Shown piece after piece: positions 19,993 to 57,498 of a stretch of 64,000 nucleotides of DNA. How positions within the stretch are numbered: position 1 is the first letter of the stretch; each line of letters opens with the position of its first letter. The position numbers and the translations under genes were made by a program. The notes beneath the pieces were generated by a model. It had not been told where the DNA came from and ran no database searches. It was given only the letters and a program-made list of their open reading frames with translations. The stretch is from Psychroserpens mesophilus (GTDB lineage Bacteria; Bacteroidota; Bacteroidia; Flavobacteriales; Flavobacteriaceae), in NCBI RefSeq assembly GCF_000826645.1, contig NZ_JXJP01000014.1, forward strand, positions 1 to 64,000, given 5' to 3'.

Positions 19993-20223
19993 TTAAGCTG
20001 AAAGCTTCTGACGAGAATACCTGTTTTGTAAAAGAAACAATTGTCTTAAAGCTGTTTTTATGGTATCATTTTTTAAGGGAAGCGTTTCAAATGTTTCACC
20101 ATTATCTAAAGTAATTTTAGATTGGCATGTTTTACATGTAAGCTCATAAGAGTCTTTTGATAATCGTTCAAGATTATGCCCAAAAACAGAGCACGACAAA
20201 TCGTTTGTAGTAGTAGTTTTCAT
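19993..20223 (-). CDS. small FGH zinc-ribbon protein (copy 1)
   Basis: 76 residues. It has 'SCSVFGHNLERLSKDSYELTC' leading into C-x2-C, a glycine turn 'DNGETF', then a helix 'LKNDTIKTALRQLF'. The order C...FGH, CxxC, G, L..K...I...L is shared with two genes at 21416-21694 and 21775-22038. With four potential ligands (Cys, His, Cys, Cys) it should bind zinc. Its start is preceded by TAATCCCAAAT, a leader element shared with copy 3. The function is unknown. Confidence 0.75.
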   Translation of the reverse strand: MKTTTTNDLSCSVFGHNLERLSKDSYELTCKTCQSKITLDNGETFETLPLKNDTIKTALRQLFLLQNRYSRQKLSA

Positions 20224-20350
20224 AAGTAGGTATTCATTTGGGATTAGAAACTTATTAAAAAAGATTCAATGCCTAGGTTAAAATGCTTGTTTTTTCGATG
20301 AAATGCATTGTTTTTGAGTAGTTAAGCTTTGAAAAAACGCTTTATGTGTA

Positions 20351-20378
20351 TTGTCTTCAAAAAAACATCCTATTTTTG
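20351..20378 (+). promoter_or_regulatory. thiL promoter
   Basis: TTG at 20351-20353, 17-nt spacer and TATTTTTG at 20371-20378. The box ends 4 nt before the ATG at 20383, predicting a leaderless mRNA. Confidence 0.65.
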
Positions 20379-20382
20379 CAAC

Positions 20383-21435
20383 ATGATAGAAGATAAAAAT
20401 CCACAACGTACATCCTTAGAGAATTTGGGTGAATTTGGTCTAATTGATCATTTAACCAAAAATTTTGATATAAAGCACACGTCCACTATCAAGAGCATTG
20501 GTGACGATGCTGCTGTTTTAGATTTTAAAAACAAACAAATAGTTGTTACTACAGATTTATTAATTGAAAATGTACACTTCGACTTGAGTTACGTGCCTCT
20601 AAAACATTTAGGATATAAAGCTGTTATCGTTAATTTATCTGATGTGTATGCGATGAATGCTCAAGCTACACAAATAACAGTTTCTATAGCTGTATCTAAT
20701 CGTTTCCCTTTAGAAGCGCTTGAAGATTTATATGCTGGAATAGAAACTGCAGCCAGAATTTATAACATTGATGTTGTTGGTGGCGATACCACATCTTCAA
20801 CTACTGGACTAATTATCTCTGTGACTGCTATAGGAGAAATTAGTAAAGATGATGTTGTATTGAGATCTGGAGCTAAAGCCAATGATTTAGTTGTTGTGAC
20901 TGGAGACATTGGAGCAGCTTATATGGGCTTACAAGTTTTAGAACGTGAAAAAGAAGTGTTTAAAGTGAATCCGCAAAACCAGCCAGACTTAAGCATGTAC
21001 ACTTATATTATTGAGCGTCAATTAAAACCTGAAGCCAGAAAAGATATTGTAGAATTGTTACAGAAGTTGGACGTTAAACCCACTTCTATGATTGATATTA
21101 GTGATGGTTTATCTTCTGAAATTATTCACTTATGTAAACAAAGTGATGTTGGTGTAGAACTTTACGAAAATAAAATTCCGTTAGATCCACAGGTTATTTC
21201 TACGTGTGAGGAATTTAATATTGATAGTACAACAATCGCTTTAAATGGTGGTGAAGACTACGAATTATTAATGACGATTTCTCAGGAAGATTTTCCAAAA
21301 ATCAAAGGCAATCCGAATCTAACTGTTATTGGTTATATGACAGAAAAATCGAGAGGCATGCACCTGATAACCAGAGGAGAACAAGCAATACCAATAATAG
21401 CAAAAGGATGGAATGCTATGAAAAATGAGGTATGA
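20383..21435 (+). CDS. thiL: thiamine-monophosphate kinase
   Basis: 350 residues from ATG 20383. Phosphorylates thiamine monophosphate to the diphosphate cofactor. ThiL signatures are present: 'SIGDDAAVLDF', 'VTTDLLIENVHFDL', 'GGDTTSS' and 'DISDGLSSEIIHLC' with 'LNGGEDYELL'. The 18-residue upstream extension (from TTG 20329) was rejected because it runs through the promoter. No thiamine riboswitch is visible in the short leader. The 3' end overlaps the convergent small FGH gene by 20 bp. Confidence 0.94.
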   Translation: MIEDKNPQRTSLENLGEFGLIDHLTKNFDIKHTSTIKSIGDDAAVLDFKNKQIVVTTDLLIENVHFDLSYVPLKHLGYKAVIVNLSDVYAMNAQATQITVSIAVSNRFPLEALEDLYAGIETAARIYNIDVVGGDTTSSTTGLIISVTAIGEISKDDVVLRSGAKANDLVVVTGDIGAAYMGLQVLEREKEVFKVNPQNQPDLSMYTYIIERQLKPEARKDIVELLQKLDVKPTSMIDISDGLSSEIIHLCKQSDVGVELYENKIPLDPQVISTCEEFNIDSTTIALNGGEDYELLMTISQEDFPKIKGNPNLTVIGYMTEKSRGMHLITRGEQAIPIIAKGWNAMKNEV

Positions 21436-21694
21436 AACTTATAAGTTGCTCATCTTTTTTAACAACAAACTTGCGCTCTTGTATTAATTGTTTTTTAGAC
21501 ATTCGATTATTATGAATACGTTCTAAAACCGAATTAATTTCTTTGAATTTAGGCGTTAGTGGAGTTAAGCCGCCTTTTCCATTCGTTGTCATTTGCGCAC
21601 TACAATGTGTGCACTTATATTCCTTAACGTGATAGGTAACTTTCTTGGAAACCTTAAATTGATGTCCAAAAAATGAACAGTAGATACTTTTCAT
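21416..21694 (-). CDS. small FGH zinc-ribbon protein (copy 2)
   Basis: 92 residues. 'YCSFFGHQFKVSKKVTYHVKEYKC' with C-x2-C (KCTHC), then MTTNGKGGLTPLTPKFKEIN and a basic helix. The block TTN..G.LT.LTPKF.EIN..LE.I is almost the same in copy 3, so these two are recent duplicates. The C-terminus has an extra 20-residue tail running into the 3' end of thiL (20-bp convergent overlap). A TATATTTA box (21735-21742) followed by TAATCC lies upstream. Confidence 0.75.
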   Translation of the reverse strand: MKSIYCSFFGHQFKVSKKVTYHVKEYKCTHCSAQMTTNGKGGLTPLTPKFKEINSVLERIHNNRMSKKQLIQERKFVVKKDEQLISFIPHFS

Positions 21695-21774
21695 TTTGCA
21701 GTTAAATTTAGTTATTACTTTAGATGGATTAGCCTAAATATATTGAAAACCAAATATTAACGTGCGTTTTTTCT

Positions 21775-22038
21775 CTAATAAATCGATGAAGTGAGTGTTT
21801 TGTTCTTTAAACGCATCATTCTTCGTGTATAAATCTCTTCAAGAATACTATTAATCTCTTGAAACTTCGGTGTGAGTTCGGTAAGTTTACCATTACTATT
21901 TGTAGTTAATTGACGTTTACAACACTTGCATGTGTATTCTTTTACATGTAAGGTTACTTTTTTGGTCATTTCATAATTGTGCCCAAAAAGGTCGCAATAA
22001 AATCTCATTGGTGATGGAGCGTTTGTAGTTTTTTTCAT
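21775..22038 (-). CDS. small FGH zinc-ribbon protein (copy 3)
   Basis: 87 residues. 'YCDLFGHNYEMTKKVTLHVKEYTC' with C-x2-C (TCKCC), then 'QLTTNSNGKLTELTPKFQEIN' split over a turn and helix, ending in a basic tail. It shares the Cys/FGH/CxxC order with copies 1 and 2. TAATCCCAAAT (minus strand, 22049-22059) lies 10 nt before the start codon, the same element as in front of copy 1. The function is unknown. Confidence 0.78.
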   Translation of the reverse strand: MKKTTNAPSPMRFYCDLFGHNYEMTKKVTLHVKEYTCKCCKRQLTTNSNGKLTELTPKFQEINSILEEIYTRRMMRLKNKTLTSSIY

Positions 22039-54416: not shown

Positions 54417-56315
54417 ATGAGCGATGCTTTAAAACATGAATGCGGAATTGCACTCATAAGACTAAAAAAACCATTAGAGTATTACAAAGAAAAATACGGA
54501 AGTGCATTTTACGGTGTAAATAAGATGTACCTTATGATGGAGAAGCAGCATAATCGAGGTCAGGATGGAGCAGGATTTGCAAGTATCAAATTAGATACAC
54601 ATCCTGGTGAACGCTACATAAGTCGTGTGCGATCGATTGCTCAGCAACCTATTCAAGATATATTTGCTCAAATTAATGAGCGTATCAACGATGAGTTTAT
54701 TGAACACCCAGAATATCAGAATAATGTAGCGCTTCAAAAAAAGCATATTCCTTATATCGGCGAATTACTATTAGGTCACGTTCGTTATGGAACTTTCGGA
54801 AAAAATAGTGTAGAAAGTGTACATCCGTTTTTAAGACAAAATAACTGGATGCACAGAAATCTAATCGTCGCTGGTAATTTTAACATGACTAATGTTAACG
54901 AGCTGTTTGATGGCTTGGTAACTCTTGGACAGCATCCTAAAGAAAAAGCTGATACCATAACTATCATGGAAAAAATTGGTCACTTTTTGGATGATGCTGT
55001 GAGTAAAATATATAAAAATCTCAAGAAAGAAGGTTATAGTAAAAGCGAATGTTCACCCTTAATTGCTGAACGCTTAAATGTGGCTAAAATTTTGAAAAAA
55101 GCCTCTAAGAACTGGGATGGAGGTTATGCAATGGCTGGATTATTAGGTCATGGAGATTCATTTGTATTAAGAGATCCTGCTGGAATTAGACCAACCTATT
55201 ATTTTGAAGATGACGAAGTCGTAGTGGTTGCTTCAGAACGACCTGTAATACAAACCGTGTTTAATGTCAACTTTGAAGATGTTAAAGAACTGGCTCCTGG
55301 ACATGCTATCATAACTAAGAAATCTGGAGAAGTTTCCATTAAAAAAATCCTTGAACCTTTAGAACGAAAAGCCTGTTCATTTGAACGTATATATTTCTCT
55401 CGCGGAAGTGATGCTGAAATTTACCAAGAGCGTAAAAATTTAGGAAAATTATTAATGCCTAAGGTATTGGAAGCTATAGACAAAGACACAAAAAATACGG
55501 TGTTTTCTTATATTCCGAATACTGCCGAAACCTCGTTCTTTGGAATGATAGAAACTGTGGAAAAGCATCTAAATGAAAGAAAAACGCAAGCCATCTTAGA
55601 TGGCAACGGTAAACTTTCTGCAGAAAAAGTCACCGAAATCCTTTCCGAAAGGCCAAGAATAGAAAAAATTGCTATTAAAGATGTCAAACTGAGAACCTTT
55701 ATTACCGAAGACAGTAGTCGTGATGATTTGGTAGCTCACGTGTATGATGTTACTTATGGTGTTATCAAGCCTACAGATAATTTAGTAATTATTGACGACA
55801 GTATTGTGAGAGGAACAACTCTTAAAAAAAGTATTATTAAGATGATGGATCGTTTAAATCCTAAACAAATTGTAGTTGTGTCGTCTGCGCCTCAAATTCG
55901 TTATCCTGATTGCTACGGAATTGATATGGCAAATCTTGAAAGTTTAATCGCTTTTAGAGCCATGTTAGAATTATTAAAAGAAAACGACAAATACCATTTG
56001 GTTGAAGAGGTATATCACAAATGCAAAGCTCAACTTGAATTAAAAGATAATAAAGTAATAAACTACGTTAAAGATTTATATAGTGAATTTACAGCTGATG
56101 AGATTTCTGATAAAATTGCAGAATTAATTTCTGATACTACTGTAAAGGCAAAAGTAAAAACGATTTTTCAACCTATAGAAAATCTGCATAAAGCGTGTCC
56201 GGAAAACTTAGGAGACTGGTATTTCACAGGAAACTATCCAACCGTTGGAGGTAATCGTGTTGTAAACAGAGCATTCATTAATTTTTACGAAGGAAACAAA
56301 GAAAGAGCTTACTAG
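54417..56315 (+). CDS. amidophosphoribosyltransferase-type enzyme (PurF-like, long form)
   Basis: 632 residues. The N-terminal Ntn glutaminase domain has its nucleophile C9 ('KHECGIALIRL'), so eight residues must be removed. 'EKQHNRGQDGAGFASIK' and 'GHVRYGTFG' are glutaminase blocks. The phosphoribosyltransferase domain contains the PRPP loop 'VIIDDSIVRGTTLKKS'. It is longer than standard PurF (about 470-500) because of insertions and a C-terminal extension. Bacteroidota carry such a long form besides or instead of normal PurF; with purN nearby a purine role is likely, not proven. Confidence 0.9.
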   Translation: MSDALKHECGIALIRLKKPLEYYKEKYGSAFYGVNKMYLMMEKQHNRGQDGAGFASIKLDTHPGERYISRVRSIAQQPIQDIFAQINERINDEFIEHPEYQNNVALQKKHIPYIGELLLGHVRYGTFGKNSVESVHPFLRQNNWMHRNLIVAGNFNMTNVNELFDGLVTLGQHPKEKADTITIMEKIGHFLDDAVSKIYKNLKKEGYSKSECSPLIAERLNVAKILKKASKNWDGGYAMAGLLGHGDSFVLRDPAGIRPTYYFEDDEVVVVASERPVIQTVFNVNFEDVKELAPGHAIITKKSGEVSIKKILEPLERKACSFERIYFSRGSDAEIYQERKNLGKLLMPKVLEAIDKDTKNTVFSYIPNTAETSFFGMIETVEKHLNERKTQAILDGNGKLSAEKVTEILSERPRIEKIAIKDVKLRTFITEDSSRDDLVAHVYDVTYGVIKPTDNLVIIDDSIVRGTTLKKSIIKMMDRLNPKQIVVVSSAPQIRYPDCYGIDMANLESLIAFRAMLELLKENDKYHLVEEVYHKCKAQLELKDNKVINYVKDLYSEFTADEISDKIAELISDTTVKAKVKTIFQPIENLHKACPENLGDWYFTGNYPTVGGNRVVNRAFINFYEGNKERAY

Positions 56316-56342
56316 ATAAAATGCTCAATTTTAGCATTTTAT
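56316..56342 (+). terminator. terminator-like hairpin after the PurF-type gene
   Basis: ATAAAATGCT / AGCATTTTAT, perfect 10-bp arms with a 7-nt loop, starting right at the stop codon. Only a short T run follows. Confidence 0.7.
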
Positions 56343-56415
56343 CCAAAAAAACTGCTGTTTATCTGAAAAAAATGCATTTCGTCTAATATTTACATAGGAT
56401 TAAGTAAAATACGCA

Positions 56416-56423
56416 TACATTGG
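56416..56423 (+). promoter_or_regulatory. degenerate -7 box of small RNA copy 1
   Basis: TACATTGG aligns base for base with TATATTTG of copy 2 (56673-56680), both 3 nt before the CACC block. One mismatch to TAnnTTTG, so this copy may be weaker or differently controlled. Confidence 0.5.
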
Positions 56424-56426
56424 TAT

Positions 56427-56500
56427 CACCATAACATAAGTAGGTTAAGTTCATGGTAGATTTGGGGCAAAAAAAGGTGAACACATGTTCACCTTTTTTT
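56427..56500 (+). ncRNA. tandem small RNA candidate, copy 1
   Basis: About 74 nt from the predicted start (CACCATAAC...) to the U tract. The first 47 nt match copy 2 at all but one position (C versus T at position 26). It ends in a terminator hairpin AGGTGAACA / TGTTCACCT followed by T7 (56474-56500). A short upstream stem CCAT...ATGG may form. No meaningful ORF: the in-frame ATGGTAGATTTG runs to different lengths in the two copies. Possibly a member of a known flavobacterial RNA family, which I cannot check here. Confidence 0.75.
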
Positions 56501-56502
56501 AT

Positions 56503-56672
56503 TAACATAAGTTAATATATATTTAACAACTTGTCTTTCAATTTATTTTGATTATCATCTAAAGTATTTCTTTCATTATCACTTATAAACGGCATTAATT
56601 GTAAATTCTTCCGTTTAAGCCAATTTATTCGTCGTTGGTCTAATAAATTTAACAATTAGAAAAAAGTCCGTT
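56503..56672. other. AT-rich spacer between the two small RNAs
   Basis: No ORF of note. Only the last 45 nt (from GTCTAATA at about 56638) resemble the sequence upstream of copy 1 (GTCTAATA at about 56381), so the duplication covered the promoter region too. Confidence 0.5.
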
Positions 56673-56680
56673 TATATTTG
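56673..56680 (+). promoter_or_regulatory. -7 box of small RNA copy 2
   Basis: TATATTTG, an exact TAnnTTTG, ending 3 nt before the conserved CACC block, which puts the transcription start at or near the first conserved base. Confidence 0.7.
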
Positions 56681-56683
56681 TTT

Positions 56684-56755
56684 CACCATAACATAAGTAG
56701 GTTAAGTTTATGGTAGATTTGGGGCAAAAAGGATGAACAACTGTTCATCCTTTTT
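56684..56755 (+). ncRNA. tandem small RNA candidate, copy 2
   Basis: About 72 nt, 257 nt downstream of copy 1 and in the same orientation. Same 5' block (CACCATAACATAAG then TAGGTTAAG), same TAGATTTGGGGCAAAAA stretch, then GGATGAACA / TGTTCATCC and a T tract (56726-56755). Relative to copy 1 the terminator stem has changed on both sides together, and T for C in the 5' stem restores an A-T pair (CCATAA / TTATGG). Expressed, structured noncoding RNA is the best reading. Confidence 0.78.
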
Positions 56756-56801
56756 CATTTTTAATTCCAATCAAAATCAACTTCTATTTTATTTCCTAAG
56801 C

Positions 56802-56838
56802 ATAAAAAAAGCAAACTCAAATGAGCTTGCTCTTTTAA
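56802..56838 (-). terminator. terminator of sodA
   Basis: On the minus strand GCAAGCTCA / TGAGTTTGC (one mismatch) followed by T7. Confidence 0.8.
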
Positions 56839-56848
56839 ATTATAAAAT

Positions 56849-56878
56849 ACCTACAAGGTATTTTTAAAACCTTGCAGG
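56849..56878. repeat. structured repeat in the sodA 3' region
   Basis: CCTACAAGGT and ACCTTGCAGG are inverse complements with one mismatch, around an AT loop. It resembles a different dispersed-repeat type from the GCTCGA arms. Confidence 0.5.
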
Positions 56879-56889
56879 ATAAATTATTT

Positions 56890-57498
56890 TTATTTCGCTT
56901 CAGCGTAACGTCTTTCAACTTCATTCCAGTTAATAACCTTAAAAAAGGCATCAATGTAATCTGGTCGTCTGTTTTGGTAATTCAAATAATAAGCATGCTC
57001 CCAAACATCTAATCCTAAGATTGGTGTTCCTCCACACGTCACACCTGGCATTAAAGGATTGTCCTGATTTGGAGTTGAACAGACTTCAACTTTTCCTCCT
57101 TTGTGCACGCACAACCATGCCCAACCTGATCCAAACTGGGTTGCTGCTGCTTTGCTAAACGCCTCAATGAACGCATCTTTGGAACCAAATTCAGCTTCAA
57201 TAGCATCTTTTAAATCTCCAGACAAATACCCTCGATCTTCAGGATTCATAACATCCCAAAATAAGGAGTGGTTATAAAAACCTCCACCATTATTTCTAAC
57301 AGCAGAATTATTCATGTCTAAGTTCTCTAAAATATCTTCAATAGATTTTCCTTCTAAAGCTGTGCCTTCAATTGCGGCATTAAGTTTAGTTGTATAACCG
57401 TTATGATGTTTTGTGTGATGTATTTCCATTGTACGAGCATCAATGTGAGGCTCTAAAGCGTCATAAGCGTATTTTAATTTCGGTAATTCGAAAGCCAT
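56890..57498 (-). CDS. sodA: superoxide dismutase, Mn-type
   Basis: 202 residues. Metal ligands: His in '[11 protein letters not shown]', His in '[11 protein letters not shown]', and Asp/His in '[21 protein letters not shown]'. Gly in place of the FeSOD Gln before NHSLFW and the 'NQDNPLMPG' Gln point to the Mn (or cambialistic) type. No signal peptide, so cytoplasmic. A TAAATTTG box lies at 57534-57541. Confidence 0.94.

Follow-up and report, generated by a model that had tools for sequence, protein, structure and literature searches.

The closest described systems are the FopS/GibS RNAs of Bacteroides thetaiotaomicron, which the available excerpts of the report (PMC11697453) present as multicopy RNAs, ca. 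65–70 nt long, that have a conserved seed and end in an intrinsic terminator; they pair near start codons, surface-protein mRNAs are among their targets, and repression was shown. According to the same excerpts, FopS blocks initiation by start-region pairing in B. thetaiotaomicron, where it is bound and antagonised by RbpB (PMC11697453). From Flavobacterium psychrophilum, the small RNA Rfp18 is described, in the accessible part of the article, as conserved beyond one species and predicted to pair with secreted-protein mRNAs; that part also gives 85 newly described Rfp RNAs (PMC9723704). Candidate small RNAs are listed for Flavobacterium columnare in the excerpts of a further study (PMC5395568), and the Flavo-1 RNA is introduced, in the part of its description at hand, as a candidate structured RNA of Bacteroidetes (PMC2864571).

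The tandem RNA genes predicted here in Psychroserpens mesophilus resemble FopS/GibS, as excerpted, in being multicopy and short, with a conserved seed, an intrinsic terminator and (in our case predicted) start-codon sites, but they form a syntenic array of tandem copies next to purF, a 5′ hairpin is predicted for them, and their predicted targets differ and include a microprotein mRNA. With Rfp18, as far as its description was accessible, they share the flavobacterial host, cross-species conservation and predicted pairing with secreted-protein mRNAs; Rfp18, however, pairs via its third stem-loop (PMC9723704), whereas two hairpins and an unpaired seed are predicted here, and on that description the two are set apart. 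Flavo-1 and the present RNA are both Bacteroidetes candidate RNAs, with no Rfam match between them. Homologues may exist among the F. psychrophilum Rfp or the F. columnare RNAs; a literature search in open-licence papers did not find the family described, and it is apparently uncatalogued. As the best explanation, with a probability of roughly 0.8, we propose family-wide, trans-acting, base-pairing small RNAs of ca. 70–75 nt which would block translation initiation of their targets.

Tandem copies between purF and sod

The window, i.e. the whole stretch of 64,000 nt that was analysed, contains the following features in the region concerned:

54417..56315, + strand: upstream neighbour, an ORF with a Pfam glutamine amidotransferase match and conserved synteny, which we take to be purF (amidophosphoribosyltransferase)
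56416..56423, + strand: putative −7-type promoter box TACATTGG of copy 1, by sequence (19/23 genus genomes)
56427..56500, + strand: predicted small RNA copy 1, C-type, with invariant body and covarying terminator (predicted transcript ca. 74 nt, ends inferred)
56435..56458, + strand: family-wide core CATAAGTAGGTTAAGTTCATGGTA of copy 1, exact in 21/30 diverse family loci
56457..56467, + strand: candidate seed TAGATTTGGGG of copy 1, mostly unpaired in the predicted fold
56469..56500, + strand: intrinsic terminator hairpin of copy 1, by complementarity and covariation
56673..56680, + strand: putative −7-type promoter box TATATTTG of copy 2, by sequence (22/23 genus genomes)
56684..56755, + strand: predicted small RNA copy 2, T-type, with invariant body and covarying terminator (predicted transcript ca. 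72 nt)
56692..56715, + strand: family-wide core of copy 2 with T replacing C, by family and genus comparison
56714..56724, + strand: candidate seed TAGATTTGGGG of copy 2, by sequence and genus-wide word counts
56726..56755, + strand: intrinsic terminator hairpin of copy 2, by complementarity and covariation
56890..57498, − strand: convergent neighbour, Fe/Mn superoxide dismutase (sod), by Sod_Fe_N and Sod_Fe_C matches and synteny

The original prediction, made from the letters of the window, had placed two copies 257 nt apart with 46 of 47 nt in common, and the coordinates agree: the two 47-nt blocks lie at 56427–56473 and 56684–56730 with this spacing and identity, the first starting ca. 111 nt past the purF stop. 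The boxes were likewise found at matching places, the 3′ end of each being 3 nt ahead of its block; their −7-type label rests on the Bacteroidetes promoter consensus. The terminator arms (56469–56483/56486–56500 for copy 1, 56726–56739/56742–56755 for copy 2) are complementary over their full length. Two hairpins are predicted, a weak 5′ one and the 3′ terminator, and the seed between them is mostly unpaired. Fold stability corresponded to z = −5.4 for copy 1 and −4.0 for copy 2, with 0/200 dinucleotide shuffles as stable.

The tandem pair is present in 23/23 genomes of the window's genus. For covariation analysis, 41 of the 46 genus copies were aligned (30 distinct rows); columns 2–42 were invariant, the exception being column 26, with a C in every copy 1 and a T in every copy 2 (23/23 genomes each). 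In copy 2 this T completes a pair of the 5′ stem which is broken by the C in copy 1, so that the C-to-T change does restore a pair as had been noted. The terminator helix is 100% paired in the 41 copies and carries double-sided changes at 5/12 pairs, which bears out the earlier remark that the two terminators diverge in sequence and stay paired. Over the whole structure, the double-sided pair count and the covariation score were each reached by 0/500 shuffles; the count of further pair types was ordinary (reached in 249/500). The 5′ stem received no covariation support within the genus because it barely varies there. Judged by this comparison, the tandem pair is more than chance.

Distribution and arrangement in Flavobacteriaceae

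A covariance model, R1, whose alignment includes both window copies and which scores them at 106.3 bits (copy 1) and 102.1 bits (copy 2), matched 243 of 299 sampled Flavobacteriaceae genomes, representing 195 of 236 genera. When five of the 56 R1-negative family genomes were searched more laxly, E-values of 0.002–0.07 were obtained at best. An order-wide search of 246 genomes returned 34 matching genomes from Flavobacteriaceae itself and 14 from outside the family; these 14 scored ≤40.3 bits, and occurrence outside Flavobacteriaceae was considered unsupported. Arrays hold one to seven copies and mostly adjoin purF. The exact core CATAAGTAGGTTAAGTTYATGGTA was present in 21/30 loci from diverse family genomes, and variants of it were recognised by eye in three others (L174, L183, L184); the weakest-scoring matches among the 30 were without the core.

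In a collection of named records, the core was found in at least 118 stretches, 80 of which are among the matches listed, with record titles such as Flavobacterium, Zobellia, Maribacter, Winogradskyella, Aquimarina and Salegentibacter. The random scattering expected of a DNA repeat, named in the original prediction as the finding that would speak against it, was not seen: purF upstream (same strand) and/or sod downstream (opposite strand) accompany 76/80 named loci, with neither in four, and purF lies upstream of the copies in 68/80. Copies within these loci are spaced by a median of 206 nt. A TAnnTTTG-like box occurs 19 nt ahead of the core in most of the 165 copies from the 80 loci. The view of the pair as small RNAs each with its own promoter and terminator gains from this comparison, as promoter-like boxes and terminators track the copies through the family. 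Many copies also show a weakly conserved TT....C.AAAA-like element ca. 46–57 nt 5′ of the core, upstream of the promoter box, possibly an activator site. Additional copies seemingly distant from purF were seen in Flaviramulus and two other genomes (L270 (4549), L448, L449, L452), flanking genes having been annotated at L270.

Within multi-copy loci, the T-type is the last copy in 38/42 cases and makes up only 4/86 of the other copies. The element ATACCAGTAnTTTAG was found upstream of 26/47 T-type and 0/119 C-type copies. Because the T-type stands last in the arrays and ATACCAGTAnTTTAG precedes this type only, two old paralogue types have been retained. Probably, C-type and T-type paralogues are under partly different control, and the different expression of the two copies that had been suggested is plausible.

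Seed complement near ORF starts

The seed complement CCCCAAATCTA had 120 exact matches across the 23 genomes of the genus (49 inside small RNA genes), compared with 10 for its reversed control word. In a second sample, 16 genomes from 15 further genera that share the seed type, the word matched 75 times (control 9); 33 of these lay inside purF arrays, and 3 of the remaining 42 were further small RNA copies. Sites were tested uniformly for an ATG at the head of an ORF of at least 38 codons, in a region reaching from −25 to +60 nt relative to the first base of the site. The genus count covers 69 of the 71 sites outside small RNA genes (the two left out are both from G020). The contrast set was drawn from 12 genomes (G023 left out) and comprised 63 sites matching CCCCAAATCTA or CCCCAAATCTT; 11 of the genomes were read as GGTAAGATTTGGGG-type and one, G148, as having a CTA-type copy.

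On the sense strand, sites lay near an ORF start in 52/69 cases in the genus and 25/39 in the other genera, compared with 15/63 contrast-set sites; the corresponding opposite-strand fractions were 5/69, 2/39 and 18/63. Fisher tests against the contrast set gave p = 4e-9 (genus) and 7e-5 (other genera), values which serve as a guide, since the sites are related by descent. Restricted to ORFs of at least 60 codons, the genus retained 21/69 against 7/63 (p = 0.01), whereas the other genera, at 8/39 against 7/63, did not differ significantly (p = 0.25), and the start-site signal outside the genus therefore rests on an ORF of ca. 42 codons. By this comparison, the unpaired seed finds its complement in start regions of unlinked genes more often than in the contrast set, for several genes in the genus and mainly for the microprotein described below outside it. 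These counts favour TAGATTTGGGG as the seed, the role already proposed for it, and the comparison also supports overlapping targets of the pair.

Two further readings were rejected or found unsupported. Co-variation of seed and target between lineages was not apparent, CCCCAAATCTT being found at starts in 1/38 contrast-set sites with no enrichment; in 8 genus genomes, 3/15 of its matches listed lay at starts, two of these starts being assigned to the small CxxC family by eye. As an independent seed, ACCTACTTATG showed no enrichment either (103 matches, 49 in small RNA genes, vs 69 for the control). Separately, ATGACCCCAAATCTA was noticed in three genera on or close to the start of short ORFs (L460, L473, L212), possibly another class of small-ORF targets.

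The microprotein mRNA as predicted chief partner

An unannotated 42-codon ORF, e.g. MNFFAPNLPKPTPTENKFITGFQNTLRLLKNILTLTKKIFML, was found in 20 loci of 19 genus genomes, 3′ of a 217-aa ORF taken by eye for scoB; G007 has a 43-aa version. Relatives occur in 10 loci of 9 other genera plus two more loci. Loci at which the ORF was observed include L043–L058, L101, L102, L107, L118, L128 and several of L441–L474. The protein had no Pfam or NCBIfam match. Outside the in-frame site described below, pN/pS is 0.37 and dN/dS ca. 0.29 (20 sequences), and on account of this pN/pS the microprotein is probably translated.

Its mRNA bears one to three seed-complement sites over leader and first codons, and 31 of the genus CCCCAAATCTA sites were assigned to it by reading. 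In the genus, one site begins 27–30 nt 5′ of the start codon, and a second lies over codons 5–8. Within this in-frame site, pS falls to 0.17 compared with 0.39 outside (20 sequences), and the RNA sequence itself is therefore constrained. Averaged across 23 leaders, the duplex energy was −36.3 kcal/mol, stronger than for any other candidate. The strongest of 55 ordinary window leaders reached −22.7 kcal/mol and was surpassed by 22/23 microprotein leaders, 20/21 CAP leaders and 18/27 CxxC-type leaders, figures which are partly circular in that candidate targets were picked via the seed, and in which the microprotein leaders are 10 nt longer than the background leaders. On these comparisons, the microprotein mRNA would be the chief and most constant partner of the small RNAs.

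The same observations raise the alternative that this mRNA is mainly a sponge which titrates the small RNAs, frees other targets and also makes the microprotein. One to three strong sites on a single short mRNA in several genera, together with its leading duplex energies and its position as the only clearly enriched partner outside the genus, would suit such a function; the sites, however, sit where translation would start on an ORF that is under purifying selection, as for a repressed target, and we consider a predominantly titrating mRNA rather unlikely. Target and sponge roles can be compatible.

Further candidate targets

Within the genus, a CAP-domain lipoprotein (PF00188) is encoded in 23/23 genomes; among the 21 leaders extracted, 19 contain CCCAAAT and 14 contain CCTAC followed by up to three bases and TATG. 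In a family of small CxxC-motif proteins, CCCAAAT occurs in 18/27 genus leaders. One member and one similar ORF are candidate targets in the window:

21778..22038, − strand: 87-aa CxxC ORF, candidate target; leader CCCAAATCTTATCAGCC immediately ahead of the start codon, with homologous leaders in the genus
19996..20231, − strand: 76-aa CxxC ORF (start 20223), candidate target; ACCTACTTATG over the start codon, with CCCAAAT just 5′

Their leaders gave duplex energies of −28.0 kcal/mol (z = −4.1) for the 87-aa and −27.0 kcal/mol (z = −2.7) for the 76-aa ORF, the kinship of the latter to the former being judged by eye and position, as it is absent from the homologue hits in its own genome. A further member of the family in the window (start 21694, minus strand) has a leader that pairs poorly with the small RNA. 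None of the small CxxC ORFs at 19993–22038 on the minus strand (starts 22038, 21694, 20223) had an NCBIfam match. Single seed-complement sites were found in the genus for two T9SS sorting domain proteins (PF18962) and for other ORFs that seem, by eye, to encode signal peptides. In four genomes (L005, L059, L060, L061), the site comes immediately behind the stop codon of a T9SS-looking gene with a convergent hisS-like gene (by eye), possibly a 3′ UTR site. Also observed in the window was AACCTACTTAT, just upstream of 19832 on the minus strand and ahead of an ORF resembling iron–sulphur assembly genes by eye; this leader pairs weakly with the small RNA (z = −1.3).

Proposed mechanism

Sequence comparison establishes an RNA family with covarying terminators and conserved synteny, seed sites close to starts in both samples, and constraint on the in-frame site. 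In the mechanism proposed from this, each copy would be transcribed from its own promoter and ended at its own 3′ intrinsic terminator hairpin. The unpaired seed UAGAUUUGGGG would then nucleate pairing with an mRNA, upon which the weak 5′ hairpin would open and pairing would spread, often through the core, towards the start codon. Pairing over or just 5′ of the start codon would block ribosome entry. The most constant partner would be the mRNA of the ca. 42-aa microprotein, with one to three sites in leader and first codons; mRNAs of the CAP-domain lipoprotein, the small CxxC proteins and T9SS-secreted proteins would be further partners in the genus. Judging by site position, the outcome is probably repression rather than activation or mRNA decay; the physiological role is likewise one that we infer.

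More tentatively, an ancient Flavobacteriaceae circuit may be envisaged, possible but short of likely, in which a purF array with C-type copies upstream and the T-type last, under partly separate promoters, and a dedicated microprotein mRNA with one to three sites, acting as both target and sponge, would together set the expression of exported lipoprotein, small CxxC and T9SS proteins. A comparable expression-setting role is held elsewhere by Hfq-type networks.

Relation to known RNAs and other readings of the locus

The covariance search against Rfam that had been proposed, including Flavo-1 (RF01705), yielded no family at its gathering score in the 64,000-nt window, and Flavo-1 was absent up to E 10 for 56300–56900. 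An Rfam identity via sub-threshold alignments was rejected, those examined resting largely on terminators. Another reading is that the copies represent a flavobacterial branch of the Bacteroides FopS/GibS RNAs (FopS, RF04319). A weak alignment to the FopS consensus shares UUCAUGGU and AGAUUU, and the start-codon targets are of the same type; the score, however, is 23.2 bits against a gathering value of 56, the L169 copy reaches 19.9 bits, and FopS is absent up to E 1 for the F. aciduliphilum copy (L281). Membership in FopS was accordingly rejected and common branching is improbable; by sequence, the shared stretch is a lead, not membership.

It was also considered that CCCCAAATCTA might be a DNA site of a transcription factor near transcription starts, the repeat in the purF–sod spacer holding the same site. 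Promoter-like boxes are often near CCCCAAATCTA sites (by eye) and one orientation predominates, as such a site would allow, but complementarity reaches past the seed towards the start codon, sites occur inside codons and right behind a stop codon, and the spacer copies bear covarying intrinsic terminators, which makes a protein-binding site very improbable. Although copy 1 begins near the purF stop and purF is the upstream gene at most named loci, it is scarcely credible that the copies are fragments processed from the purF 3′ end, or attenuators there, and not free small RNAs, given that a promoter-like box and a terminator accompany each copy individually and that the rare copies named above are seemingly off purF.

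Conclusions

The original prediction of the pair is correct and understated, and comparison backs its interpretation well. To our knowledge, few flavobacterial small RNAs have been characterised so far. Trans-acting base-pairing RNAs being the preferred reading, the sequence comparison indicates a new family, very widely distributed, that belongs to a known kind of regulator and has a conserved microprotein mRNA as its main predicted partner. The family spans most sampled Flavobacteriaceae genera with a fixed genomic address and a near-invariant sequence, and its short list of predicted targets includes an overlooked conserved microprotein; post-transcriptional control in Flavobacteriaceae is thereby made directly testable.
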